From: Natronococcus occultus SP4
GTDB taxonomy: Archaea > Halobacteriota > Halobacteria > Halobacteriales > Natrialbaceae
Direction of reading: 5' to 3'
Length of the DNA stretch: 64,000 nucleotides
NCBI RefSeq assembly: GCF_000328685.1
Contig: NC_019976.1
Location: 1 to 64,000 of the forward strand
Part shown: piece after piece, positions 7,504 to 62,738 of the stretch
Layout of the letters: every line of letters starts with the position of its first letter
Numbering within the stretch: position 1 is the first letter of the stretch
Translations under genes and position numbers: made by a program
The notes under the pieces: model-generated
What the model saw: the letters and a program-made list of their open reading frames with translations, nothing else
The model's database searches: none
Told to the model about the DNA's origin: nothing

Positions 7504-9468
7504 CTAGATATTTGTTACTGTATCGTGTTCGTCCTCAAGTGCCTGGGCGTCCTCGTCGAGTAGTGCAACGGTAAGATACGGCGCATACGACTCAAAGTAC
7601 TCCACAACGGTTGCGATGCGTTCGGAATCAATCGCCTCGAGTGAATCGAGTAGCATGAACGGAACCGTCTCGTAGACGTCGTGGACCAGATATCCTGCAA
7701 GTGCAAAGACGAGTCCGGTAACCTCGCGCTCGCTTTCGCTGAGATGGCTGATCGAGTCCTCGTAGGCTGCTCCCTCCTCAGTACTGCGGACAATCTTGAG
7801 ATCGAACGACGATTTCGTCACTTTACGCCGTCCTTCGCGAACGTCGCGTGTGGTTTGATCGATCCAGATCCGATCGAGGTTACTGTACTCGAGGATCTCC
7901 AAGAGACTCTCCATGTGCTCGTTGAACGCTTCGACTGCGCTGTCTTCGATTTGGTCGATACGGGTTCGGAGATCAGCTAACTCCTCCGTCGTTTTTTCGC
8001 GCCGCTCCTGAAGTCCTTCGCGATCATCGAGTCGTTCCTCGATTGACGTGATTTTGTCTTCCACGTCGTCGCGCTTGCTTTCCTTTCGTTCGATCTCGAA
8101 CTCGAGTTGATTGACTTCCCGGTGTTGTTCGAGAATGTCTTCGGAGTCGTCGGTCTCGAGGTCATCGATCTCTGCCTCGAGTTCAGTAATCTCCTCCGTG
8201 AAAGCTTCTCGATCGTCCGTGAGATCCTCAATGCGATCTCGCCGGCGCTCGATTTCGTCGTCGATCGACTCGAGACGTCGCGTCGCTTGCTGATGCTCGG
8301 AGCGATTCTCTTCAATCTCGTTACGCATCGCTCGGTTCTTCTCGAGTTCGTCGTTGATCTCCGAGCGTTCATCCAGCCGCTCTTCGTATACTGACCGCAG
8401 CTGTTCGAGTGTGGTCTCGATCTGATCGGTTGCGACCGAGGACCCACAGGTCCAACACGTGACGGTATCCGAATCAGAATCGGGAAGCAACTGGTCGGTT
8501 ACGGGTTCCTCGTTGCTGCCCTCTCCCCCTCCAAGGAAGTCACCGGGATCCTCCAGCAGTTGCTCGTTGAACTGAATCGTCCGCTGAAGCTGCGAAATTT
8601 CTTCGTTGAGTTCGTCTTTCTCTGCTTGGAGCGTATCGATTTTTGCTTCTAGACGTCCGAGATCCGCTTCTCCACCTGCCTGCAGCTCTTCGAGAGTGGC
8701 TTCGACGTCCTCGCGCTCGTCTTCGAGTGCTTCGATACTCTCGCGTTCAGTCTCGATTCGATTTCGAACGCGTTCGAGTTCCGATCGTGTCTCGCGAAGT
8801 TCGTCGAACTTCTCCTCGAGTTCGGACCGTTCCTCACGCCGGGTTTCGACGTCGGTATTCGCAGCTTCGAGTTCGTCCTCGGCTGTTTCGAGTTCGTCTC
8901 GGAGTTCGTTGATTTCGTCGATCAGTCGTGTTCGCTTGGCCTCAAGATCAGGGAGCTGATTTTCGAGATCATCGAGTTCGTCGAGTTGGCTATCGATCTG
9001 CTTCTTTCGTTGCTCGAGTTGTTGGATCTCGGCTTTGATAGCCTCGGTATCGACCGGCCGCATAATCAGATCGCGCAGATCGTCGCCACGAGCAACAGCC
9101 TGACGAGCCTCGTTTGACTCGAGTAGAAACGCAAACAGATCCGCGATCTCCGGATCATCAAGATAGGGGTCACCCTCAGTAACGATCGTCCCGTTCCGCC
9201 GGTGAAGCGTCTGCTGGTAGGTTTCTTCGCCGAACTCGAGTACAGCTTGGCCCTCTTTGCTGTCAGCTTTGAGGCTCGCTTGATCACTACCGAGTGCCGC
9301 CATAATTCCCTGGAGCAACGACGTCCGATTTGTCGCGTTGCGACCGGAGAGAATAGTAATCCCCTGTTCGAACGACACCTCTGTCTCATCAATTCCGCCA
9401 ATATTGTTGACAGAGAGAGTCGCTTGCTCAGGCAGTGATCGTTCTCGAGCGTGCTGGCTTGTTCCCAT
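7504..9468 (-). CDS. Archaea-specific SMC-related coiled-coil ATPase
   Basis: The 654-residue protein starts at ATG 9468 (a TTG at 9480 would add four residues). The N-terminal head has GRNATNRTS where a Walker A would read GxxxxGK(S/T); the GK is replaced, a variant I associate with this haloarchaeal family. A long charged coiled coil (about 120-530) contains a single CWTC (CxxC) near its middle, like the Rad50 zinc hook. The C-terminus has an ABC signature-like HLSESEREVTGL and Walker B PFMLLDSLEAID. Relatives (Sph3-type) are linked to cell shape together with RdfA in Haloferax; no rdfA-like gene is adjacent here. Its last 157 bp are duplicated at 4354-4510. Confidence 0.88.
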   Translation of the reverse strand: MGTSQHARERSLPEQATLSVNNIGGIDETEVSFEQGITILSGRNATNRTSLLQGIMAALGSDQASLKADSKEGQAVLEFGEETYQQTLHRRNGTIVTEGDPYLDDPEIADLFAFLLESNEARQAVARGDDLRDLIMRPVDTEAIKAEIQQLEQRKKQIDSQLDELDDLENQLPDLEAKRTRLIDEINELRDELETAEDELEAANTDVETRREERSELEEKFDELRETRSELERVRNRIETERESIEALEDEREDVEATLEELQAGGEADLGRLEAKIDTLQAEKDELNEEISQLQRTIQFNEQLLEDPGDFLGGGEGSNEEPVTDQLLPDSDSDTVTCWTCGSSVATDQIETTLEQLRSVYEERLDERSEINDELEKNRAMRNEIEENRSEHQQATRRLESIDDEIERRRDRIEDLTDDREAFTEEITELEAEIDDLETDDSEDILEQHREVNQLEFEIERKESKRDDVEDKITSIEERLDDREGLQERREKTTEELADLRTRIDQIEDSAVEAFNEHMESLLEILEYSNLDRIWIDQTTRDVREGRRKVTKSSFDLKIVRSTEEGAAYEDSISHLSESEREVTGLVFALAGYLVHDVYETVPFMLLDSLEAIDSERIATVVEYFESYAPYLTVALLDEDAQALEDEHDTVTNI

Positions 9469-10024
9469 AGGAGTAGCCAAGAGATGTGGAGGTAGGTATT
9501 TATTAATTAGCCCTACAATATGATAGATATCACTGGCTTCTGTAATTTTGGAGTCGTGTCTTGTGATATTCTGAGCTACTTCGTTAAAACCCCTCCAAGT
9601 TTGGTATCGGATTGCGTACTGGATACAGAGTATGAGTTCAGGTTTCCTTTGGTTCAGGCCTCTTAGACTGAATTGGCCACAAGAACGCTATTGTGTATTG
9701 GGAAGCGAATGTGTTTTAATGGAATTGGTGCTTACCGATTTTCACTACTAGCATGAGTATAACCTCTCGTCAAAAAATATAATTTGGAGCGGTTGGTCGT
9801 TCTAATAGCATTGAAAGTTCGAGCATGAATACTCAACCAGATCGACTCATTCTTTCTTATCACTTGAACACCACCTCGACGATGCAGTACGGTACCACAG
9901 CAGTTTGTTTACCTGAGGGGGGTATAACTAGTATTGAAGAACATTGCGGGGGTGGCGACATAGTCAAGGGATCGCCCGACCCCGTTCATCGCACGGTTTG
10001 TCCGGAAGTAAGGAGGGGGCGCCG
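9469..10024. other. Intergenic region, nothing recognised
   Basis: This 556-bp stretch lies between two divergently transcribed genes. It is AT-richer than its flanks and must hold both promoters. No coding frame with haloarchaeal character, repeat or remnant was identified. Confidence 0.5.
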
Positions 10025-12274
10025 ATGTCGCTAACTGAGCGGATCGTCGACCGGATCGGTAACGATCGGTACGCCGATGCCTTGCCCGACGACCTGCGGG
10101 AGCAGGCTCAGGAGGACAAAGGCGTGGACTCAGAGGATATCGACCTCGCGGTCTCGACCGGCGAGGTCTACCCCGACAAGACGGAGCAGCGGGCGTTCGC
10201 GACCACACTAGCCGTTGCGGTTGTCCTGTGGCTGATGCTGCTGGTCGCGGGCGGCCGCCTCTCGCCCGTACAACTGCTTGCTACCGGTTTCTCCATCGAT
10301 GATCTGCTTACGTTCACCGTCTATGGGTACTTCGCCGTTGCGCTCGCCGTCGGAACAGGTGTCTCAGCCGCCCACTGGTACGTTCGGAGGGCGCCGTCCG
10401 AGATCCGCGAGCACCTTGACGCGAGTCCGTTAGTAACCTTTGTTACCACCACGGTCATCAGCGGCCTAGTGTTCCTGCTAGCGGCACTAGGCGGATGGCT
10501 GCTCGTCATGGGAGCTCTGCTGGGCGCGATCGTGGCCCTGCTTGTCCTGCTTGTGGCCATCCTACTGTCGATTCCGCTGGCCCTATACGGTCTCCTTAAG
10601 TGGGACCGAAGGGCAATCGGTGTCAGCGTGGGCGCATTCGTGGCCGTGGCCGTTCTCCAAGTGCTCGAGGCTATCTGGCCCTCTGGGATTCCGGTCGAGT
10701 ACTACGTTCTGATGATGACGTACGCGCTCGCGATCGTTCTCGCCGGCATGCTCCTCGATACCGCCGTTTCCAACGATCTTGAGGAGTACCGCGATCACAT
10801 CGGCGAGATCCGGGTCTCCCGCGATCTCTTGGAGACCGATGTGGAGCGCCTGCGGTCAAGCGCGCCTGCGGGTTATCCCGTCAAGGTACCGGTGCCCGAT
10901 CCCGACGTGTCTGAGAGTGCGACCGACAGCGAGGCAGTCGTCGCGGAGGCCTTCGACTTGGTCAAGGCCTACGACCGCCACATTGACGCGCGGCCCGACT
11001 CCTCAACCAGGCGAGGACACTCTACGGTCGCGAACCTGCTGTTGACCGCCGCGGCAGCGACTCATCCCTCGCGGTGTATTTCGCCCACAGTCGCAACAGA
11101 CGCCGCGGACGCGCTGGAAAAACTCGTGGCCGCGTGCGAGGCGTTCGAGGACGAGGGGTTCGACGACGATCAGTTGACTGAGACTCACGTCTGGAGCGTC
11201 TGTCGGGATCTCGAATCGGCCGACAATGCCGATGCTGGCGACATACAGCGCCTGTGGGACGCCTGTGAAGCGTTCGAGGACCGGCTGACCGATCTTGAAG
11301 ACCGCAAGGAATTCCGCGAGCGCGTTGATGAACTTCGCTCTGGACTGGCGTCGACGTTCGACGATCCACCCGCCGACTACCTCGATGTAGGGTCCACCGG
11401 CGACCAGAACTGGGAGCGCCTGGAGCGGGAAGAGCAGGTGCTGGCGCTGGCACAGCAAGCTGCAGACCTTCGCCGCGAGTATCCCCGTGCCGACCTTCCG
11501 GTGGCGCTGCTGTCGGTACTGCGCGATGACGCGATCAACGCCCGTGATCTCGACCCCTACGACCTACTGGTTGAAGTCGGCAAGCGTGCGTTGGACACCG
11601 CCGCTGAGTACGGTGCGCCGTTCGATCGGGCGCGCTCGCAGGTACTGACGATCGCACGGGAGGACCCGACTGGGCGGGCCGACGACCTCGACGCTCTGAG
11701 GGAGGTGCTTGAGCGCGGGGTACGGATCACCGAGTTCCTCGACCGCGTCGACCACGACCACCCTTCAGTTGAGGCCGCGGAGTGGCGGGACGCGCTGGCG
11801 ACGGCCGTTGACGACGCGTTCCCGAACATCCTACGGCCTATCGACAGCCAAATTGAGGCGATGGGTGACGGCCTCTGGGAACGCTCGGACTTGTTCGCCT
11901 ACGACTGGCAGGAGTTCGAGTCACTGGTGGGGTCGCTGTACGCCGACGATGACTATGACATCGAGGTTACGACCGACACCAATGACGGTGGCGTCGACGT
12001 GTGGGCGCGCTCGCCCGGGGAGACAGTCGCGGTCCAGGTGAAACAGCACTCGCCGGGGAACACGGTTGGCCGCCGCGTCCTCCAGCAATTGGCCAGCACC
12101 ATCGCCAAGGGCAGCGCGGACCGAGTTGTGGTTGTGACCAGTGCAGAGTTCGCTAACACCGCAATCGAGTACGCCGCTGAGTTCGGGCCGGAGATGGATC
12201 TTGTCGACGGCGACGACCTAGTGCGGCGACTTTCAGCGTCAGATCTTCCGCCGCCGCGGACAATCGAGCCTTGA
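10025..12274 (+). CDS. Polytopic membrane protein with C-terminal Mrr-type restriction endonuclease domain
   Basis: From the ATG at 10025, preceded by an AAGGAGGGGG ribosome-binding site, the product is 749 residues. About five to seven hydrophobic segments lie between residues 60 and 265 (for example TLAVAVVLWLMLLVAGG and VLLVAILLSIPLALYGLL). A long soluble helical region follows. The last 120 residues form an Mrr_cat-like domain: YDWQEFESLVGSLY, then DTNDGGVDVWAR and VAVQVKQHS, giving the D...Q-x-K catalytic pattern of PD-(D/E)XK enzymes, and ending with DRVVVVTSAEF. A membrane-anchored nuclease suggests defence against incoming DNA, by inference. No methyltransferase is nearby. GC content and codon use look higher than in the neighbouring genes. 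Confidence 0.85.
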   Translation: MSLTERIVDRIGNDRYADALPDDLREQAQEDKGVDSEDIDLAVSTGEVYPDKTEQRAFATTLAVAVVLWLMLLVAGGRLSPVQLLATGFSIDDLLTFTVYGYFAVALAVGTGVSAAHWYVRRAPSEIREHLDASPLVTFVTTTVISGLVFLLAALGGWLLVMGALLGAIVALLVLLVAILLSIPLALYGLLKWDRRAIGVSVGAFVAVAVLQVLEAIWPSGIPVEYYVLMMTYALAIVLAGMLLDTAVSNDLEEYRDHIGEIRVSRDLLETDVERLRSSAPAGYPVKVPVPDPDVSESATDSEAVVAEAFDLVKAYDRHIDARPDSSTRRGHSTVANLLLTAAAATHPSRCISPTVATDAADALEKLVAACEAFEDEGFDDDQLTETHVWSVCRDLESADNADAGDIQRLWDACEAFEDRLTDLEDRKEFRERVDELRSGLASTFDDPPADYLDVGSTGDQNWERLEREEQVLALAQQAADLRREYPRADLPVALLSVLRDDAINARDLDPYDLLVEVGKRALDTAAEYGAPFDRARSQVLTIAREDPTGRADDLDALREVLERGVRITEFLDRVDHDHPSVEAAEWRDALATAVDDAFPNILRPIDSQIEAMGDGLWERSDLFAYDWQEFESLVGSLYADDDYDIEVTTDTNDGGVDVWARSPGETVAVQVKQHSPGNTVGRRVLQQLASTIAKGSADRVVVVTSAEFANTAIEYAAEFGPEMDLVDGDDLVRRLSASDLPPPRTIEP

Positions 12275-22423: not shown

Positions 22424-22704
22424 AGACTCTCTGTTACGCTTCTCGCCTGAGTGTCTGTGATTCGACACGCCGTGACGAATACATTCCTGTCGTTCTCTGT
22501 CTACTAATACTGATAGACGAACAGTGAGCCACAATATCGGATATCCGAGAGAGGATCAGTTACAGGAGGAGGCCCCCGGAACTCTCGAACGAGAGCGAGC
22601 AATGCATCGATATCACGTCGGGCTCCGGATCAATAGACTTGCTGGATGAGACTATCAAACTCACCCACAAGAAGGTAAAATACGGAAGTAATCGAAAGAG
22701 GAGT

Positions 22705-25398
22705 ATGGCCATCCTCGAACGAGCTCCCGCTGTACTTTCCTTATCGGACCCGCAGGCCACGAATACTGAACTCTCCGGCGGGAAGGGAGCAAACCTCGCC
22801 AAACTCGTCTCGGCCGGGCTTCCCGTTCCGGACGGGTTCTGCGTGACGACGGCTGTCTACGAAGAACTCGCGGAAGACAAGGAGATGTCCGCGATGATCG
22901 ACGACCTCGAAGCCACGAATCCGATCGATACCGAGAGGTTGCGGGAGCGAGCGACGGAACTCCGGGATACCATTCGAGCAAAAGAACTCCCAGAGGACGT
23001 CCAGGAATCTATTGAGGTCCAGCTGGAATCTGGTGTCTCGTACGTCGCCAGGTCGAGTGCGACAGCCGAGGACCTCCCGACGGCCTCGTTCGCCGGACAA
23101 CATAGCACGGTCCTCGACGTGAACAGCCTCGCGGACGTTACGGACGCGGTTCTGGAGTGTATGGCGAGTCTGTTCACCGATCGGGCGGTATCGTACCGAG
23201 CGCGAAACGAGATCGCACACGAGGAGGTGTCGATGTGCGTAGTCGTTCAGGAGATGATTGACGCCGACGCATCCGGCGTGCTATTCACGGCCGATCCGCT
23301 CACCGGCAAGCGAACTGTCGCCTCGATTGACGCCTCGACCGGACTGGGTGAAGCGGTCGTTTCGGGAACGGTGACAGCGGAAAACGTTCGGGTAGACCGA
23401 GAATCCGGCGACATTCTCGAATACCGTGCCGGAGTCAGTGGCGACGATGGATCCGATCCGGTCGGCGCGAACGAACCGGTCATTGACATCGAGAACGGAG
23501 GCGTACCGGACGCCAAGGACGACCGAGTTCTCACCGACGAGCAGGTGACGACGCTCGTCGCCTACGGTGAGGGGATCGAACGTTCGTTCGACTCTCCACA
23601 GGATATCGAGTGGTCGATCGCCGACGGCCAGTTCTGGATGCTGCAAACGCGCCCGATAACCACGCTTTCGCCACTCCCTGAACCGCGGCCCGATGACGAC
23701 GCGCTGCACGTCTACTACAGCTGGAATCACCGGCAGGGGATGACCGAGGTGATGCCGCCGCTCGTTGTCGATTACTGGTCGCGGACGATGGACGGACTGT
23801 TCGACCGAGTCGGGTCCGATCCCGAGACTGGGTTGTCGAGTGCGACCGCGTGTGGGATGGTGTACATAGACGTTACGTCGCTCCTGCAATCAGATAGGCT
23901 TGCACCGATCCTCCTCGAAGGGCTCAACGACTTCGATAGGCAAGCAATCGCGCCCCTCGAAGCCGTTCGTGAACAGCGTGGTGACGAACTGGCCCAATCG
24001 TCCGTGCTTCGGGGCACGTCGCTAACGCAGACTGCTTCGACGATCGGGAAGTTAGCTCCCGTCGTCGGACAGACGCTCGGTTCCATCCTTCAGGGGTTGG
24101 TGAGCAGCTCGTACGAGCAGGCTCCACGCAGAGCACGCCAGTGGGCAGACGCCACAGCGGAGGAGATGATTCGGGAGATTCGGACGGGGGACTCGGAGGC
24201 AGCCCGGCTGCGGATCGCTCTCGAAAAGAACGACGAGTTCAGCTGGGAAGCCATGGAGGTGGCGTTGAAGCTGTGGAACGTCTACTTCTACAGGGCGGCC
24301 CTGCGGCGGCTCTGCCCCGACGCCGACGACGAGTTCGAGGCCCTCGAACGAGGGTTGCGTGAAAACGTCACCACTGCGATGATGATCGAATTGGGTGACG
24401 TCACTGATATCGCCCGCGACAACCCGCAAGTCGAAGGAGCGCTCAAAGAGGGCTGTAGCCTCGACGAGATACGCGAGGTAGCTGGCGGCGAAGAATTCAC
24501 TGCTGCGCTCGAGAACTTCCTCGATGCGTATGGGTTCAGGGCCCCCGCCGAAATCGAGTTCTCTCGCCCACGATATCACGAGGATCCGTCACAGCTGTTG
24601 GGCACCGTTCGGGCGAAACTCGAAACTGGCGAACCTGGAGACCACAGAACTCACGTCGAACGCCTGGAGACCGAAGCCGAGCGAGCGATCACTCGCCTCG
24701 AACGACAGGCGGGTGGAGAACGGTTCGGCTCGATTCGACGACGTCTCGTCCGTCCGTTCGCGCTGCGGTACCGGAGCTATCTCTCGATGCGGGAGGTCAC
24801 CAAGTACGCTCTCTCGCAACTGCTGGATGAAACCCGGCGACAGGTACTCGCAGCTGGTGAGAAACTGGAACGTGAAAGCCGTCTCGAAGACGTGAACGAC
24901 GTCTGGCTCTACGACTTCGACGAACTGCTGTCCGAACTCTCGAATCCCGACACGCCGATCGACATCGATATCGATGCACGGCGGGCCGAACAGTTCCACA
25001 ATCAGCAACTTCGTGCACCGCGTCTCATCACGAGTGACGGGGAGATCCCCCGAGGCGATATTGGTTCGGATGTCGATACCGACGGACTCGCAGGGATACC
25101 GACAGCCAGTGGTGTCGCAGAAGGGCAGGCTCGGGTCATCGAAGAACCGAGCGACGCCTCCCTCGAAACTGAGGAGATACTCGTCGCCCCACACACCGAC
25201 CCCGGGTGGACGCCGCTGTTTCTCAACGCAGCCGGACTGGTGACCAATAACGGCGGGAAGATGACCCACGGGTCGATCGTCGCCCGAGAGTACGGCATCC
25301 CATCGGTAGTGGTCGCTGGAGCGACGGAGCAGATAGAAACAGGACAGCGAATTCGAGTCGATGGGAACCGGGGCGTCGTCGAATTGCTCAAAGACTGA
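22705..25398 (+). CDS. PEP-synthase-like phosphotransferase with rifampicin phosphotransferase (Rph) architecture
   Basis: From ATG 22705 (preceded by AAAGAGGAG) the product is 897 residues. The N-terminal third is a PPDK/PEP-synthase ATP-grasp domain: LSGGKGANLAKLVSAGLPVP at the start, YVARSSATAEDLPTASFAGQ, GVLFTADPLTGKR and DIEWSIADGQFWMLQTRPI. A long helical middle region follows. The phosphohistidine domain is at the extreme C-terminus with NNGGKMTHGSIVAREYGIPS (catalytic His). PEP synthases have a TIM-barrel domain after the His domain, which is absent here, so the order ATP domain, middle, His domain is that of Rph enzymes. The natural substrate in an archaeon is unknown. Confidence 0.88.
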   Translation: MAILERAPAVLSLSDPQATNTELSGGKGANLAKLVSAGLPVPDGFCVTTAVYEELAEDKEMSAMIDDLEATNPIDTERLRERATELRDTIRAKELPEDVQESIEVQLESGVSYVARSSATAEDLPTASFAGQHSTVLDVNSLADVTDAVLECMASLFTDRAVSYRARNEIAHEEVSMCVVVQEMIDADASGVLFTADPLTGKRTVASIDASTGLGEAVVSGTVTAENVRVDRESGDILEYRAGVSGDDGSDPVGANEPVIDIENGGVPDAKDDRVLTDEQVTTLVAYGEGIERSFDSPQDIEWSIADGQFWMLQTRPITTLSPLPEPRPDDDALHVYYSWNHRQGMTEVMPPLVVDYWSRTMDGLFDRVGSDPETGLSSATACGMVYIDVTSLLQSDRLAPILLEGLNDFDRQAIAPLEAVREQRGDELAQSSVLRGTSLTQTASTIGKLAPVVGQTLGSILQGLVSSSYEQAPRRARQWADATAEEMIREIRTGDSEAARLRIALEKNDEFSWEAMEVALKLWNVYFYRAALRRLCPDADDEFEALERGLRENVTTAMMIELGDVTDIARDNPQVEGALKEGCSLDEIREVAGGEEFTAALENFLDAYGFRAPAEIEFSRPRYHEDPSQLLGTVRAKLETGEPGDHRTHVERLETEAERAITRLERQAGGERFGSIRRRLVRPFALRYRSYLSMREVTKYALSQLLDETRRQVLAAGEKLERESRLEDVNDVWLYDFDELLSELSNPDTPIDIDIDARRAEQFHNQQLRAPRLITSDGEIPRGDIGSDVDTDGLAGIPTASGVAEGQARVIEEPSDASLETEEILVAPHTDPGWTPLFLNAAGLVTNNGGKMTHGSIVAREYGIPSVVVAGATEQIETGQRIRVDGNRGVVELLKD

Positions 25399-52612: not shown

Positions 52613-53248
52613 TTATTCGAGAGAACGCTTCTTTAATTGAGCGTCGATATACTCATCGAGTTGGTCATAGACGTCCCGAGCAGTAGCGTCGTTCATCAGC
52701 GAGTAGCGAAACAGCGCACCTTCGAGGACGGTCAGAATGAATTCGGCAACCGAATCTGGATCGACATCTCGAAAGACACCGTCCGCAATTCCACGTCGAA
52801 TGATCTGTACGATGCGATCGTGAATCGCTTCGTCCTCCCGAAGCAATTCGCGCCGAAATGCCTCGTCGTGGATGGCCTGTGCCCTGAGTTCGATGAAGGC
52901 ATCGATAGCCGTTTCGTCGAGAACACCACCGATCGAGTTGGATTCAGCACCTGGATCAATCGAGAAGAGATCGATAAGCCTCATGAGGTCTTCCTGTGGG
53001 TCTTGCGTCTCACCATCGGAAAGCGATTCGAGAAACCAGTCGAGAAACCGACTCAAAAAATCGAGCAAGAGCTCGTTTTTTCCATCGTAGTGGTTGTAGA
53101 GCGCAGATTTACTCAATTCTGCTTCGTCTGCAATCTTTGCGATCGAGAGGTTAGCGTAGCCGTGTTCCTGTAGCACACAGTAGGTCGACTGCATAATAAC
53201 GTCGACGGTGTCGGTCTGCTCTGCAACAAATTGATCGGAATTCGACAT
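52613..53248 (-). CDS. TetR-family transcriptional regulator
   Basis: The 211-residue protein has the TetR helix-turn-helix HGYANLSIAKIADEAELSKS, ALYNHYDGKNELLLDFLSRF (residues about 30-70) and a helical ligand-binding domain with DEAFRRELLREDEAIHDRIV and DPDSVAEFILTVLEGALFRY, like other haloarchaeal TetR proteins. It lies 65 bp downstream of gvpM in the same direction and could share its transcript or regulate other genes. Ligand unknown. Confidence 0.92.
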   Translation of the reverse strand: MSNSDQFVAEQTDTVDVIMQSTYCVLQEHGYANLSIAKIADEAELSKSALYNHYDGKNELLLDFLSRFLDWFLESLSDGETQDPQEDLMRLIDLFSIDPGAESNSIGGVLDETAIDAFIELRAQAIHDEAFRRELLREDEAIHDRIVQIIRRGIADGVFRDVDPDSVAEFILTVLEGALFRYSLMNDATARDVYDQLDEYIDAQLKKRSLE

Positions 53249-53313: not shown

Positions 53314-53679
53314 TCACGATCGGTTCGGCGGTTGGCCTGTTTTCGGTTCGGTTGCCCTCTCGCTACCTCGCCTCCCGTCATCGGCAGCTGACTCTGGTTT
53401 CCGTTCGCGATCAGTCCCCAGGCCCGGTTCGTCGCTGGTCTCCAATTTCTCGGCGAGATAGTCGTCGTCGATATCGGTCATCGCGGGCTCCCACTGGGTC
53501 ATGATTCCGTACTCGATCATCGTCTCGATATTCGCTATCGCGGCCTGCAAGCGCACCGCGACGAGAGGGATATCGTTGACGGTGATCAGTAGGTCCGCGT
53601 TCAGGATTGCTCCCTTGTTCAACGCGCGATTCAATAGTCCGGCCAGACCTTCGTCAGCTGATTCGGTTTCAGGTTCCAT
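53314..53679 (-). CDS. gvpM: Gas vesicle protein GvpM
   Basis: From ATG 53679 the product is 121 residues (a longer frame to 53754 would run deep into gvpL). It has the GvpA/J/M core GLAGLLNRALNKGAILNADL, LITVNDIPLVAVRLQAAIAN, IETMIEYGIMTQWEPAM, closest to GvpM by the DIPLV and EYG patterns. A charged tail follows. GvpM is an accessory protein that interacts with GvpL in gas vesicle assembly. It overlaps gvpL by 11 bp. Confidence 0.88.
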   Translation of the reverse strand: MEPETESADEGLAGLLNRALNKGAILNADLLITVNDIPLVAVRLQAAIANIETMIEYGIMTQWEPAMTDIDDDYLAEKLETSDEPGLGTDRERKPESAADDGRRGSERATEPKTGQPPNRS

Positions 53680-54451
53680 CTGTGTCGGTGGGGGAGGCGG
53701 TTGTTCCGAATGACCCGACGAACGAGTACGGATGCCACGGACCGGTGAAGACAACCTCGATACCCGGTTCGGCGTCGATTTCGCTCAATGCTTGTTTCAG
53801 CCCGGCGACCTCGCCGTCGGCAACGAGACATGACGCCGTAAGGACGTTTCGACCCCGCTCGTCGCTCTCACGGTCGAGGTCTTCCTCCATGATTTCGTCG
53901 ACGACGGCCTCGATACGAGGGAAGTAGGACTGAAACCGCTCCTTCGTACGTTCTGCGAGTTCCTGCCGGCGTTGCTTTTCTCGTTTCTTTCGTTCGAAGT
54001 ACGCCATCCCGCTCGAGTCGCTGGAACCCGTCTCGTCGGCCGGCTCGGTTTCCCCGATCAGTACGTCCTCCTCGCAGTAGATCCGAACGCCGTATTCGCT
54101 TGTTCCGGCCAGGTCGCCCAGACAGCTCCCGATCTGCTCTTTGTGGTCGTCGAGGAACGTTCGAAGAGCGTCCTCATCCGCGAAGATTGTGTCGAACGTC
54201 ATCGGGAGTGGTGTTCCAAACGCGTCCCCTGCCCGTTCGATCGTCTCGTTGTGTTGTTTGACCCACGTTTCCGCTTTCGATCGATCGTCGGTATCGTACG
54301 CTTGCGGCGAGCAGGAATGGACGACAGCACCGATGTCGTCCTGGACCACGACAGACACCGGTTCGTCGTCGATTCCCGTCCCGAGCGAGCGGGTATCGGT
54401 GCCGGCCGCGTCGACGATACAGTAGGTGTACTTGCTCTTGCTCTCAGTCAT
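53669..54451 (-). CDS. gvpL: Gas vesicle protein GvpL (GvpL/GvpF family)
   Basis: The 260-residue protein starts MTESKSKYTYCIVDAAGTDT, with the GvpL/F strands DDEPVSVVVQDDIGAVVHSC, AFGTPLPMTFDTIFADEDAL, VRIYCEEDVLIGE and a long charged linker; it ends VVFTGPWHPYSFVGSFGTT, the strongly conserved GvpL/F tail (GPWPPYSF). In Halobacterium GvpL binds most accessory Gvp proteins. It overlaps gvpK by 4 bp and gvpM by 11 bp. Confidence 0.93.
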   Translation of the reverse strand: MTESKSKYTYCIVDAAGTDTRSLGTGIDDEPVSVVVQDDIGAVVHSCSPQAYDTDDRSKAETWVKQHNETIERAGDAFGTPLPMTFDTIFADEDALRTFLDDHKEQIGSCLGDLAGTSEYGVRIYCEEDVLIGETEPADETGSSDSSGMAYFERKKREKQRRQELAERTKERFQSYFPRIEAVVDEIMEEDLDRESDERGRNVLTASCLVADGEVAGLKQALSEIDAEPGIEVVFTGPWHPYSFVGSFGTTASPTDTDGT

Positions 54452-54858
54452 TCTTCTGTCCCTCCAGCGTTCGTTGCTGGCGTCTCGTGCTCACTATCCG
54501 CGACGGGTTCGTCGTCTATTCCGTCGGTGAACCCACGCTGTTCCTGTGCCTCGATTTCGCGTGCCCATTCGGCCGGGTTGAGCGCCGTATTGAGGACGTC
54601 ATCAACCGTTCGATCGAGCTGTTCTTTCGTCTCCGATGCCGTCTCTTCGACGTTTTGCTCTTCCTCTATCTGCTGGATGGTCTCCTCTAAGTCCCTCAAC
54701 GATTGGCCGAGCTGTTCGGCAGACTCGTCGTCGAGAACTCCCGATTCAACCAGTTCGAGCGCCTGCTGATCGATTACCTCCTTGATAATCTCGACGAGTG
54801 CCATAATGAGCCCGAGCAGTCCTTGCTCGAGCTCCTCTTCGTCGACTTCGATCGTCAC
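54448..54858 (-). CDS. gvpK: Gas vesicle protein GvpK
   Basis: The GTG start at 54856-54858 overlaps the TGA of the preceding gene (GTGA), giving 136 residues; a start at 54948 would add 30 out-of-character codons. VTIEVDEEELEQGLLGLIMA and LVEIIKEVIDQQALELVESG, then VLDDESAEQLGQSLRDLEET are the GvpK helices. The acidic C-terminal extension is longer than usual. GvpK is an accessory protein needed in gas vesicle formation. Confidence 0.9.
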   Translation of the reverse strand: MTIEVDEEELEQGLLGLIMALVEIIKEVIDQQALELVESGVLDDESAEQLGQSLRDLEETIQQIEEEQNVEETASETKEQLDRTVDDVLNTALNPAEWAREIEAQEQRGFTDGIDDEPVADSEHETPATNAGGTEE

Positions 54859-55349
54859 GCGATAGTCACTTCCGTTTCGTGCAGGGACGCGACATCTGTC
54901 TGTCGGGGCGGATCGCCGGTAAACCACCGCTCGAACGTGATCCCCCACCCGGTTCTGGAATCGACGTCTCGCGTCTCGAACTCGAGAGTCGGCTGATTGC
55001 GGATTTCCCGTGTACTCCTGTTGAGTCGCTCTCGTCTCACGGTTAGTGTTGCCATATTCGTCTCCGCATCGACGAGCGCTGTGAGTTCCGGGATCGACGC
55101 GTGTTCGTCGTACCAGCAGTAATCGAGGACGGCGAGGCTGCGGTCATCGAGCGCCGCAACGAACTCGTAGACGGTCACTTTGCGGTGAACTCCCAGTACG
55201 GTTTGCAGTGTATCGACCGCCTCGGTGACCTGCGTAAGCGTGCGGCGTGTGGAGTCCGACGATTCGTCCGCCCGGCTGCTGACGCGCTCTCGATCATCTC
55301 GAGTGAGTGGACCCGCTTTCCGCTCCGGACGGGTTATTTCGTGTGTCAT
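54855..55349 (-). CDS. Unknown protein inserted between gvpJ and gvpK
   Basis: The 164-residue protein starts MTHEITRPERKAGPLTRDDR. After a charged N-terminus it has DTLQTVLGVHRKVTVYEFVA, ALDDRSLAVLDYCWYDEHAS and IPELTALVDAETNMATLTVR, a helical region that could be a winged helix, then strands ending GWGITFERWFTGD. It overlaps gvpK and follows gvpJ by about 112 bp, so it is transcribed with the gvp genes. It does not resemble GvpF, G, H, I, N or O as I know them. Gene-cluster position suggests a role in assembly or control of the vesicle genes. Confidence 0.75.
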   Translation of the reverse strand: MTHEITRPERKAGPLTRDDRERVSSRADESSDSTRRTLTQVTEAVDTLQTVLGVHRKVTVYEFVAALDDRSLAVLDYCWYDEHASIPELTALVDAETNMATLTVRRERLNRSTREIRNQPTLEFETRDVDSRTGWGITFERWFTGDPPRQTDVASLHETEVTIA

Positions 55350-55461
55350 TGGGGGTGAGTGTGATACTGTTCGAGTGCCGTTCGAGAGACGACTCGGCTT
55401 ACGGCCGCGAGTTCACTAGCTTTCATGATGATATAATGAGTGGACGGGCCTTCGGCATGAT

Positions 55462-55881
55462 TCATCGTTCATTGCCGTCAACGTTGTTCGAAGAGCGTTT
55501 GTTCTCGAGGGGGTCTGCGACCCGATCCGTCTCCGTTTCTTGCCGCTTCGAACGAGCGCTCTGCCAGCCACACCATGGGCACTCATCGTTCAGCAAGACC
55601 TCCTTCTCGACGCGTTTCACACACTGCGGGCACGTTTCGTTCCGGGCTCGAGCTTCGGCATACGCCTTCGTTTCTTCCGTTCCGGCCGGGAACTCGAGGC
55701 CGTACTCTGCCGCCGTTTCGAACGAAGCCAGTGCCGCACGGACTTTGATGCCGAGCAGTTCCGTTCCGGCGACGTCGATTGTGATGTCTGCATTGATCAC
55801 TAATCCCTTATCGAGAATTCGATCCACAGCTCCTGCCAGTCCACTTTCCGAGTCGTACGCGTTATTGGCTTCTATACTCAT
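55462..55881 (-). CDS. gvpJ: Gas vesicle protein GvpJ with C-terminal zinc ribbon
   Basis: From ATG 55881 the product is 139 residues (ATG 55899 would add six). SGLAGAVDRILDKGLVINAD, ITIDVAGTELLGIKVRAALA and SFETAAEYGLEFPAGTEET are the GvpA/J core, closest to GvpJ by ELLGIKVRAALASFETAAEYGL. The tail, ARARNETCPQCVKRVEKEVL then NDECPWCGWQSARS, holds two CxxC pairs and looks like a zinc ribbon, which is not part of the GvpJ proteins I know. It is the first gene of the operon. Confidence 0.85.
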   Translation of the reverse strand: MSIEANNAYDSESGLAGAVDRILDKGLVINADITIDVAGTELLGIKVRAALASFETAAEYGLEFPAGTEETKAYAEARARNETCPQCVKRVEKEVLLNDECPWCGWQSARSKRQETETDRVADPLENKRSSNNVDGNER

Positions 55882-56188
55882 GAACGATCGTTCGTTCACC
55901 AGTCCGTAAGCTATACATGAAAAAGCAGAGCGCTCGCTTGCAAGGTCCCAGAAATCGGTTCGCAGGCGATGATAGAAACAATAAAGCCACCATCACCGTT
56001 TCCGACTACTGGCTACTACTCGGGCACTGTTTCTCGGGGTGAGACGAAGGTGTGTACAGCGTTCTCTGACACCCGATGGGGTACTGTGCGACAGTGGATG
56101 CCGGAAATCCGGAATCCATCTCGACGCCACACTCCTCGGGATCTCGCTTGGCCTCTCCGCTCCAAAGAATCGATAGCGAATCGGCTAC
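55882..56188. promoter_or_regulatory. Region upstream of the gvpJ operon
   Basis: About 300 bp between gvpJ and the end of the MBL hydrolase gene. The palindrome CGATCG with flanking GAACGA/TCGTTC (about 55882-55898, AACGATCGTT) lies near the gvpJ start. No gene seen. Confidence 0.35.
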
Positions 56189-60814: not shown

Positions 60815-61150
60815 TCACCGCCAGGGCGTCCCTATCGCCTCCGCCTGGATGTCGTGGCCCACCCGGAGCGTACAGTCGGTCTCGGGGGTGGCAACGCAGG
60901 CGAGGACGTACCCGTCCTCGAGGACGTCGTCTTTCAGCGCGCGAGGCGGCTCCAGGTGACGACACCTCCCTTCGAGAAGCCGGGCGGTGCAGGTCCCACA
61001 GGCGCCGTAGAGACAGCCGTAGGGGAGATCGATCCCGGCCGATTCGGCAGCGTCGACAATCGACTCTCCCGGCGGGATCTGGAGGCTGTCCACCGCCCCG
61101 TCAGCGTCGCGGAGTTCGACGACGTGGCCGGGGTCGTCACAAGCGGTCAT
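60815..61150 (-). CDS. 2Fe-2S ferredoxin
   Basis: The 111-residue protein has the plant-type ferredoxin cluster motif CLYGACGTCTARLLEG (C-x4-C-x2-C) and a fourth Cys in GYVLACVATPETDC. The first strand is HVVELRDADGAVDSLQIPPG. It is somewhat shorter than haloarchaeal main ferredoxins and lacks their acidic insert. It overlaps the SBP56 gene stop by 4 bp, so the two are cotranslated; it likely carries electrons for that enzyme. Confidence 0.92.
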   Translation of the reverse strand: MTACDDPGHVVELRDADGAVDSLQIPPGESIVDAAESAGIDLPYGCLYGACGTCTARLLEGRCRHLEPPRALKDDVLEDGYVLACVATPETDCTLRVGHDIQAEAIGTPWR

Positions 61151-62559
61151 CGCCAGACATCGCTCGTGCAGTCACCGCCGGGCCAGCGAATCTCGTGGGC
61201 ACGGGCCGGACTGCCCGGCGCGTCGCCGAAGTCGACGAGGAACTCCTCGTCGAGTTCCATCCGCCCTTCATCGGGGTAGACGTCAGCCTTGAGCATTACT
61301 GACCCTTCCTCGGCGATCTCCGGGAAAAATTGGTTGTCCCACGACGAGAACAGCGACGTCGTCCAGTAGAGACGGCGGCCGTCGCGTGAAAGCTGGAGCA
61401 TCTGTGGTGACCCTCGGATGTTGGTCCCCTGAACCTCCTGGCGGTCGCCGAACAGCCCGCCAGCCCAGATCGTATCGACGAGTCGGGGGTTGCCCATGTC
61501 GCTTACGTCGTACATCCGAAGGTTGCCGTGGAGCCAGTTCGAGTAGAACAGATACTGGTCATCAAGTGACAGCAGGGTATCGGTGACTAGCGACGGCACC
61601 GGCATATCCCAGTCGTCGTGTTCACGGGCTTTCTCCTCGATGACGACGTCCCAGTCCCACGTGCCGTCGTCGGTCTCGTAGAAGTGGATGATGTTCGAGG
61701 ACAGGCCCGCTCCCACGTATCCCTGTGTCTCCTCGGGATTGTGGCTCATTCGGACCTCGAGGGGAATCCGTCCCTCCTCACCGAACTCGAGGGTCTGTTC
61801 GTGACGTTTCTCCGACCAGTCCCAGATGTGGATGCTGTCGCCGTAGTTGCCCGCCTCGACGTCCTCGAGGTCGAAGCCCGGATAGTAGGTGTTCGGGGCA
61901 GCCCACTCGGTGGAAACTAACACGTCGTGTCGGGGCTGATACCAGTAGTCGTAATGCATCCCCTCCCACTCGCCGGTATCGTTCTCCCACCGGCCGTCGA
62001 TCGTGAAGTCCTCCTGATCGAGCTGGAGGAATCCGCCGGGGAGTTCACCGTCGGCGTTGCCGAGCATGCTGATGACGATCTTTCCGTCCGGGACGCAGTG
62101 GACGGTATGGGGCGCCGAGAGATCGTACTCGAAGACCTCCTCTGGTTCGATGACTGTCACGATCTCCGGGTCCCGGGGATCTTCGGCATCAATGATGTGA
62201 ATGCGGGAGGATCGCTGCCCTGGTACCACGAGATACTGCCGGGCGAGCCCCTCCGCGTGACACGACGACGAACAGGCATTCCAGCCGAAGTGATGGAGTT
62301 CGTCGCCCTTGTTCGGCATCTCCACTGTATCGATCAACTCGCTGTACGTCTCCGACTCGGGATCGAGATCTACGACGCCGACGAAATCCTTTCCGTCGGT
62401 TTCCATGCCGACGCGAAGAGCCATCACGTAGGCCGTTTTCTCCCGTTCGGATTCGGTCCGCATCGCTGCAGGCGTCGGGTACCCGGGGCCGTCGGCGTCC
62501 TCGTGGTCGTGATCGTGGGTCGGCTGTTCGTCCTTAGAAGGTGATTGGTCTGTACTCAT
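61147..62559 (-). CDS. SBP56-family protein (methanethiol oxidase)
   Basis: From ATG 62559 the product is 470 residues. It has the selenium-binding protein pattern: GDELHHFGWNACSSSCHAEG (conserved Cys pair, His), VVPGQRSSRIHIIDAEDPRD, SAPHTVHCVPDGKIVISMLG, HYDYWYQPRHDVLVSTEWAA and WLHGNLRMYDVSDMGNPRLV. Bacterial members oxidise methanethiol to formaldehyde, hydrogen sulfide and hydrogen peroxide; Cu is the cofactor. Here no Tat or Sec signal is evident at the start, so a cytoplasmic enzyme is likely. The partner ferredoxin follows directly. Confidence 0.92.
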   Translation of the reverse strand: MSTDQSPSKDEQPTHDHDHEDADGPGYPTPAAMRTESEREKTAYVMALRVGMETDGKDFVGVVDLDPESETYSELIDTVEMPNKGDELHHFGWNACSSSCHAEGLARQYLVVPGQRSSRIHIIDAEDPRDPEIVTVIEPEEVFEYDLSAPHTVHCVPDGKIVISMLGNADGELPGGFLQLDQEDFTIDGRWENDTGEWEGMHYDYWYQPRHDVLVSTEWAAPNTYYPGFDLEDVEAGNYGDSIHIWDWSEKRHEQTLEFGEEGRIPLEVRMSHNPEETQGYVGAGLSSNIIHFYETDDGTWDWDVVIEEKAREHDDWDMPVPSLVTDTLLSLDDQYLFYSNWLHGNLRMYDVSDMGNPRLVDTIWAGGLFGDRQEVQGTNIRGSPQMLQLSRDGRRLYWTTSLFSSWDNQFFPEIAEEGSVMLKADVYPDEGRMELDEEFLVDFGDAPGSPARAHEIRWPGGDCTSDVWR

Positions 62560-62738
62560 CCTAGACAAGTGTTATCTCTTTCCAAATACTTATAGTTCGA
62601 GGCGGCGGTGCGAAACCCCTACCACGTGGTCAGAACGCTTTGCGTTCTGGTGGGCCGTACGACAGCTCCGCTCTCCTGGACGTCGGCGGATCGCGTCCGC
62701 TGTCAACCTGCCGATGTACCCTAGCCAATTCACGCAAG

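Follow-up and report, generated by a model that had tools for sequence, protein, structure and literature searches.

What would an operon of gas-vesicle (gvp) accessory genes accomplish on a replicon that carries no gvpA? The question is raised by a locus of the haloarchaeon Natronococcus occultus SP4, located in the first 64,000 nucleotides of contig NC_019976.1 (the window, i.e., the whole stretch of DNA that was analysed), where five tightly packed minus-strand genes, gvpJ-X-K-L-M, are found without gvpA. We propose, with a probability of about one half, that this operon is a mobile, TetR-controlled, plasmid-borne second seeding module that works with the GvpA, GvpF, GvpG, GvpO and GvpN proteins encoded on the chromosome. 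The operon and its surroundings comprise the following features, listed in the direction in which the minus strand is read:

55882..55893, no strand assigned: 12-bp perfect palindrome GAACGATCGTTC, directly upstream of the gvpJ ATG, a candidate operator
55462..55881, minus strand: gvpJ, 139 residues from the ATG, with a C-terminal CPxC...CPWC putative zinc ribbon (PF00741, cysteine conservation, and dN/dS, the ratio of nonsynonymous to synonymous substitution rates)
55346..55426, minus strand: apparent remnant of the original N-terminus of X, 26 codons, MKASELAAVSRVVSRTALEQYHTHPQ, in the sequence of the J-X gap
54855..55349, minus strand: X, 164 residues, a predicted winged-helix protein of an unnamed gvp-cluster family, without an Hsp20-like tail
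54448..54858, minus strand: gvpK, 136 residues, with a GTG start overlapping the X stop (PF05121)
53669..54451, minus strand: gvpL, 260 residues (NF045778 GvpL equivalog, PF06386)
53314..53679, minus strand: gvpM, 121 residues, of the GvpA family, with GvpM as the closest NCBIfam model
52613..53248, minus strand: TetR-family regulator gene, following gvpM (PF00440 and PF13977 above cut-off)

The X/K, K/L and L/M junctions overlap by a few bases, J and X are spaced by a gap of 112 bp, and an alternative in-frame GTG start of gvpJ is possible at 55899. The Pfam matches of J, K, L and M are far beyond chance: GvpJ (54.3 bits, gathering cut-off 25) and GvpM (44.2 bits, cut-off 25) pass PF00741, GvpK passes PF05121 (48.6 bits, cut-off 25), and GvpL passes both the curated cut-off of PF06386 (202.7 bits) and the NCBIfam equivalog NF045778 (257.9 bits, cut-off 200). 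The TetR protein likewise passes PF00440 (TetR_N; 42.8 bits, cut-off 24) and PF13977. The best NCBIfam models for GvpJ and GvpM are the haloarchaeal exception models NF046090 and NF046091, although both proteins score below the cut-offs (94 vs 125 bits and 67.6 vs 109 bits, respectively). Because of this NF046090 score we call the plasmid GvpJ GvpJ-like and not a curated haloarchaeal GvpJ.

The replicon in question is a contig of 287,963 bp (C3) in a three-contig genome of 4.31 Mb, and we read it as a plasmid-like second replicon because it encodes ParA, two Cdc6/Orc proteins and TBP. The chromosome, i.e., the main contig (C1, 4.01 Mb), carries gvpA, N, O, F, G, J, K, L and M at approximately 2.720-2.726 Mb, with the genes O, N and A oriented opposite to F, G, J, K, L and M. 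A genome-wide search with PF00741 returned five matches above the cut-off, namely the plasmid J and M and the chromosomal A, J and M (2.7215-2.7262 Mb). The plasmid operon is consequently a second J/K/L/M set and not the sole one of the genome, since the chromosome holds its own J, K, L and M. The two sets are far apart, with 36% identity for K and 29% for L, a GC content of 56-60% in the plasmid gvp genes vs 62-70% in the chromosomal gvp genes compared, and a chromosomal GvpJ that contains no cysteine.

These results bear on an earlier note, made from the sequence alone, which had described five overlapping genes J-X-K-L-M without gvpA at 53314-55881. The description stands: a hidden Markov model (HMM) scan of the window matched only J, X, K, L and M, with gvpA, F, G, N and O not found there, and the PF00741 matches on the entire contig are J and M only, i.e., the gvpA that would mark a complete cluster is not among them. 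No complete gvp cluster lies immediately outside the window; the full cluster is on another replicon, and the gvpA, gvpN, gvpO and gvpF that the note had proposed to seek in the rest of the genome are all found on the chromosome. The idea that the operon complements a distant gvpA cluster is right in that such a cluster exists, but that cluster has its own J, K, L and M and simple complementation is not needed.

The plasmid GvpJ ends in ETCPQC...ECPWCGW, and the two CxxC pairs that the earlier note had remarked upon at its C-terminus are real. The four cysteines and the CPWCGW core show no variation across 19 aligned relatives, and GvpJ proteins with this ribbon (ribbon-GvpJ) occur in Streptomyces, Clostridia, Bipolaricaulota, Chloroflexota and methanogen-side archaea. 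The GvpJ of Halobacterium lacks cysteine and cannot do without its C-terminal part, which makes contact with GvpG, GvpH and GvpL (PMC8716928); the hydrophilic, cysteine-free C-terminus seen in that protein, encoded by the p-vac cluster, is not matched by the plasmid GvpJ, which has the Cys4 ribbon instead. By analogy with these contacts, the ribbon may lie in the part of GvpJ that meets its partners. A scan of GTDB genomes queried with the C-terminal region of GvpJ alone yielded 60 loci in taxa that include Streptomyces and other Actinomycetota, Clostridia, Desulfosporosinus, Bipolaricaulota, Chloroflexota, Atribacterota, Synergistota, Thermoleophilia, Myxococcales, a Thermoplasmatales metagenome-assembled genome (MAG) and a few haloarchaea. 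Strong ribbon-GvpJ matches were found in three of the 391 genomes of a class-wide sample, namely N. occultus, Natronococcus jeotgali (the nearest operon-carrying genome among those sampled, and of the same genus) and genome G270, which has two copies; in Natrinema zhouii the ribbon-GvpJ copy is plasmid-borne. Many non-haloarchaeal ribbon-GvpJ clusters also contain GvpM-like proteins of 300-380 residues with PH/GRAM or Vps36-like similarity (L016:10452-11363; L026:12950-14029; L120:5987-7072), and methanogen-side GvpM-like copies (L120, L121, L123) carry a C-terminal ribbon closely resembling that of GvpJ. Some methanogen-side MAGs have several gvp loci (L125:5843-6079; L109; L116), and the ribbon-GvpJ of L125 is truncated at its start.

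The separation of such an operon from gvpA recurs in three lineages. Among the Streptomyces ribbon-GvpJ loci for which a full 20-kb span was available, J-M-K-L stands without N, O or G in 18 of 19; at the remaining one, L051, O-A-F-G lies at a distance of about 3 kb. In each of three Desulfosporosinus genomes, J-X-K-L-M is preceded by an F/L-type gene, and another contig holds additional GvpA-family genes; a MarR-like gene stands upstream of the operon in the two loci examined in detail. Each of the 23 A-less-operon genomes that were checked (4 haloarchaea, 16 Streptomyces, 3 Desulfosporosinus) has further GvpA-family genes elsewhere, and most also have a second GvpK; no genome with the module but without gvpA was found among them. 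The whole genome of Streptomyces megasporus (G421) encodes one GvpK, two GvpF/L and three GvpA-family proteins, split between O-A-F-G at one locus and J-M-K-L at another, and the same eight genes form one complete cluster in Nesterenkonia. In most other bacteria, ribbon-GvpJ and X lie inside full A-containing clusters. G270 has two A-less J-K-L-M copies without X in addition to a full gvp cluster, and a gvpA standing alone on another contig, L106 (loci L104, L105, L106 and L128). A literature search on A-less gvp operons and on gas vesicles in Natronococcus or Desulfosporosinus returned nothing specific.

We favour a seeding module because the natural cut between A-F-G-O and J-M-K-L follows the published division between chaperone and seeding functions. 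For the cluster of Bacillus megaterium it has been proposed that S, K and J seed the vesicles and that GvpA2 needs them to interact with GvpL, with GvpA2, F and G making up a chaperone subnetwork of their own and GvpN taking part in elongation (PMC11445434), while the GvpL of Halobacterium is a platform that binds all Gvp proteins except GvpA (PMC9501494). In the mechanism we propose, GvpL would serve as the platform, J and M as GvpA-like subunits forming or capping the first tip, K as a soluble assembly factor, and X as a winged-helix accessory protein. The module would nucleate vesicles, whose growth would then use the chromosomal GvpA, the chaperones F, G and O, and the ATPase N. The dedicated TetR regulator would let the plasmid switch seeding on and off separately from the wall genes.

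The gene between J and K has no match in Pfam or NCBIfam, so that the earlier note was right to call its family unknown; an unrelated insert, however, it is not. An HMM built from bacterial X finds archaeal X (E = 1.3e-13 for the window copy), an HMM of three archaeal X finds bacterial X (best E = 3.9e-19; both among 6862 open reading frames), and profile-profile comparison of archaeal X with bacterial and methanogen-side X gives a probability of 99.2 (E = 1.3e-19). As these two HMMs retrieve each other with matches within gvp loci, a random insertion is ruled out. The loci of the HMM test were themselves fetched via GvpJ, and the independent evidence of linkage to gvp genes comes from a Halobacteriota-wide search for X, where strong non-haloarchaeal matches sit with gvp genes in 6 of the 6 contexts fetched; among the methanogen-side MAGs, two X matches of the genome search contain in-frame TGA codons. 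The note had also suggested looking for X beside gvp genes in other genomes, and there it is found, often directly between J and K in bacteria: this is its position next to ribbon-GvpJ in Clostridia, Desulfosporosinus, Atribacterota and Synergistota, and X immediately precedes J in Great Salt Lake Bipolaricaulota and follows K in Chloroflexota, Thermoleophilia and Myxococcales. Judged by these profiles, X belongs to a recurrent, predicted winged-helix family of gvp clusters that has no name in the libraries searched.

The AlphaFold2 (AF2) model of X (pLDDT 71.7) shows helices followed by a wing, and its best matches in the PDB are DNA-binding domains, with CadC in first place (Z = 7.2) and the rest of ArsR, MarR and OmpR type; the best Foldseek E value is 0.72, and these neighbours point to a winged-helix fold without being decisive. 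X may be a DNA- or protein-binding factor in assembly or regulation. Bacterial X proteins have an Hsp20-like C-terminal region (NCBIfam Hsp20, best E = 9.2e-18) that is absent from the window copy, and some carry extra N-terminal parts with helix-turn-helix or weak GRAM-like similarity. The concern that X might be a known Gvp protein was not borne out, as it matched no named Gvp family tested: the profile probability is 0.1 for GvpE, and for the Hsp20-like haloarchaeal GvpH it is 0.15 with archaeal X and 5.7 with bacterial X, the latter confined to the Hsp20-like tail. Microcystis gvpX and Methanosarcina gvpH occupy the same position between J and K (PMC9501494, Table 1); X, which shares that position, could prove related to either. 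The sequence MKASELAAVSRVVSRTALEQYHTHPQ in the J-X gap matches the N-termini of X in N. zhouii and N. jeotgali, is one frame off X, and ends in a TGA that overlaps the X ATG. By comparison with these orthologues, the N-terminus of X was lost by a frameshift in N. occultus, with the predicted winged-helix core intact.

All operon genes are under purifying selection. The dN/dS values, calculated among the window, N. zhouii and N. jeotgali copies as simple NG86 estimates, some of them near saturation, are 0.07-0.10 for J, 0.24-0.30 for X, 0.13 for K, 0.17-0.26 for L, 0.15-0.21 for M and 0.13 for TetR (0.07-0.31 overall), at a synonymous divergence of 0.4-1.9 between the copies of the three species. 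An apparent truncation of gvpK in N. jeotgali is explained by an assembly gap in the contig there. Orthologous TetR genes stand downstream of gvpM in all three species, and related TetR genes flank both G270 copies, so that a TetR gene is found beside every haloarchaeal copy; the TetR gene of Streptomyces SGAir0924 is not conserved beside other Streptomyces copies. The palindrome GAACGATCGTTC occupies an identical position in N. zhouii and N. jeotgali and is not present in the copies from another haloarchaeal family. It overlaps the possible upstream GTG start of gvpJ, and part of its conservation could therefore be coding. With this reservation we regard the palindrome as a candidate operator and the TetR protein as the putative regulator of the operon. 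The MBL and SDR genes upstream are not considered part of the system, as neither is kept beside the operon in relatives. In two haloarchaea of different families, polyprenyl synthetase-like and TetR genes lie upstream of the mini-operon (L104:4407-6122, L015:7796-10599), a pair not seen at the second G270 copy.

With respect to origin, the conserved domain of J is 64-78% identical to bacterial and methanogen-side ribbon-GvpJ vs 59% to the chromosomal J, and on these identities J was likely acquired by transfer from a ribbon-GvpJ lineage. In a tree of K and L, the haloarchaeal plasmid copies form one clade (bootstrap 100) on a long branch, tied weakly (61) to the chromosomal haloarchaeal K/L. 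With this separate long branch and weak tie, a duplication of the chromosomal set within the lineage is not supported. No relative of ribbon-GvpJ or X was found in viral_contigs, and a virus-borne origin was accordingly set aside.

Several points weigh against a seeding function. With J, K, L and M already on the host chromosome, the cell could in principle do without a second seeding set, and interaction of the plasmid K and L with chromosomal A, F and G is not assured, because of the low identity of the K and L pairs and their deep separate clade. Related haloarchaea with intact 11-gene clusters have been reported as Vac- (PMC4390858), the co-occurrence with gvpA may just mirror how common gvp clusters are in these taxa, and redundancy with the chromosomal genes fits a role independent of GvpA equally well. 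In such a role, which the earlier note had raised as a repurposing, J and M would assemble with K and L into a small structure of their own (shell, cap or scaffold), partnered by the zinc ribbon and X, and would add nothing to buoyancy. We consider this unlikely, even though it would agree with the consistent lack of A, G, N and O from the operon in three lineages, the full cluster with its own GvpK in nearly all hosts, the deep divergence of the plasmid K and L, and the GvpA-like shell segment in both J and M; it sits poorly with the failure to find the module in a genome without gvpA, with the ribbon-GvpJ and X inside full A-containing clusters of most other bacteria, and with the report that A, J and M are unable to replace each other (PMC8716928). 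The narrower proposal of a gas-vesicle-derived GvpJ/GvpM shell or cap, retained for a purpose other than buoyancy beside normal clusters in haloarchaea, Streptomyces and Desulfosporosinus, appears to us similarly doubtful.

The plasmid L, J, M and K might instead bind chromosomal Gvp proteins unproductively and, when induced, reduce or reshape the vesicles. A divergent paralogous set with its own TetR gene would suit such an antagonist, as would the many contacts of J and L with Gvp proteins in published assays (PMC9501494). We regard it nevertheless as improbable, given the purifying selection on all genes, the J ribbon included, and given S. megasporus, where the module is the only source of K and must act positively if vesicles are made. 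Slightly less credible still is a decaying relic of a full gvp cluster that, having come to lie on the plasmid, lost A, F, G, N and O. The frameshifted N-terminus of X in N. occultus and the G270 copies without X are what decay might leave behind, but dN/dS is far below 1 in all genes at high synonymous divergence, the same gene set with TetR is retained in Natronococcus, Natrinema and another family, and the upstream palindrome is conserved.

The operon was compared with its closest known systems. With the p-vac cluster of Halobacterium salinarum (gvpACNO, gvpDE and gvpFGHIJKLM) it shares the order and overlap of J-K-L-M, J and M of the GvpA family, and the GvpL platform; it differs in lacking A, C, N, O, F, G, H and I, in having X between J and K, in the Cys4 ribbon of a protein that in p-vac is cysteine-free (PMC8716928), in its own TetR in place of GvpD/E, and in residing on a replicon other than that of gvpA. 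The GvpJ-GvpS-GvpK and GvpL proteins of B. megaterium pNL29 (PMC11445434) represent the same functional group, two GvpA homologues with K and L, but lie within one cluster with A/B, F, G, N, R, T and U, whereas the plasmid operon stands alone. The Streptomyces J-M-K-L operon (e.g., NZ_CP027299, S. megasporus) likewise has a ribbon-GvpJ (62.5% identical), K, L, a GvpA-family M and no gvpA nearby, and differs in its gene order, in lacking X and in a C-terminal extension of M with weak PH/GRAM-like similarity. The complete clusters with ribbon-GvpJ in Clostridia, Atribacterota, Bipolaricaulota and methanogen-side archaea share ribbon-GvpJ, X (often between J and K), K, L and M, but they include A, N, O, F and G, their X has the Hsp20-like C-terminal region, and their M is often extended.

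Elsewhere in the window, the plasmid encodes a Trp/Tyr-type class I aminoacyl-tRNA synthetase (PF00579, 30859-31842), a phosphoenolpyruvate synthase-like protein with PPDK_N and PEP-utiliser domains (22639-25398), a 776-residue protein that ends in an Mrr-type restriction endonuclease domain (9944-12274), with an AAA_23 ATPase nearby (7504-9480), and a homologue of the 56-kDa selenium-binding protein (PF05694) with an adjoining small ferredoxin-like open reading frame (60815-62568). Judged by sequence, biotin synthase-like and biotin-synthesis aminotransferase-like proteins are encoded on the plasmid just past the end of the window (L135:207-3604).

Of the steps in gas-vesicle assembly, seeding has been called the least understood (PMC11445434). 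The operon of N. occultus and its counterparts present J, M, K and L cut out as one unit from the wall protein and the chaperones in three lineages and two domains, together with two added components, a conserved putative zinc ribbon on GvpJ and the predicted winged-helix family X. They would thus offer a natural test case for whether J, M, K and L are self-sufficient for seeding and whether the number of vesicles can be controlled apart from the supply of wall material.

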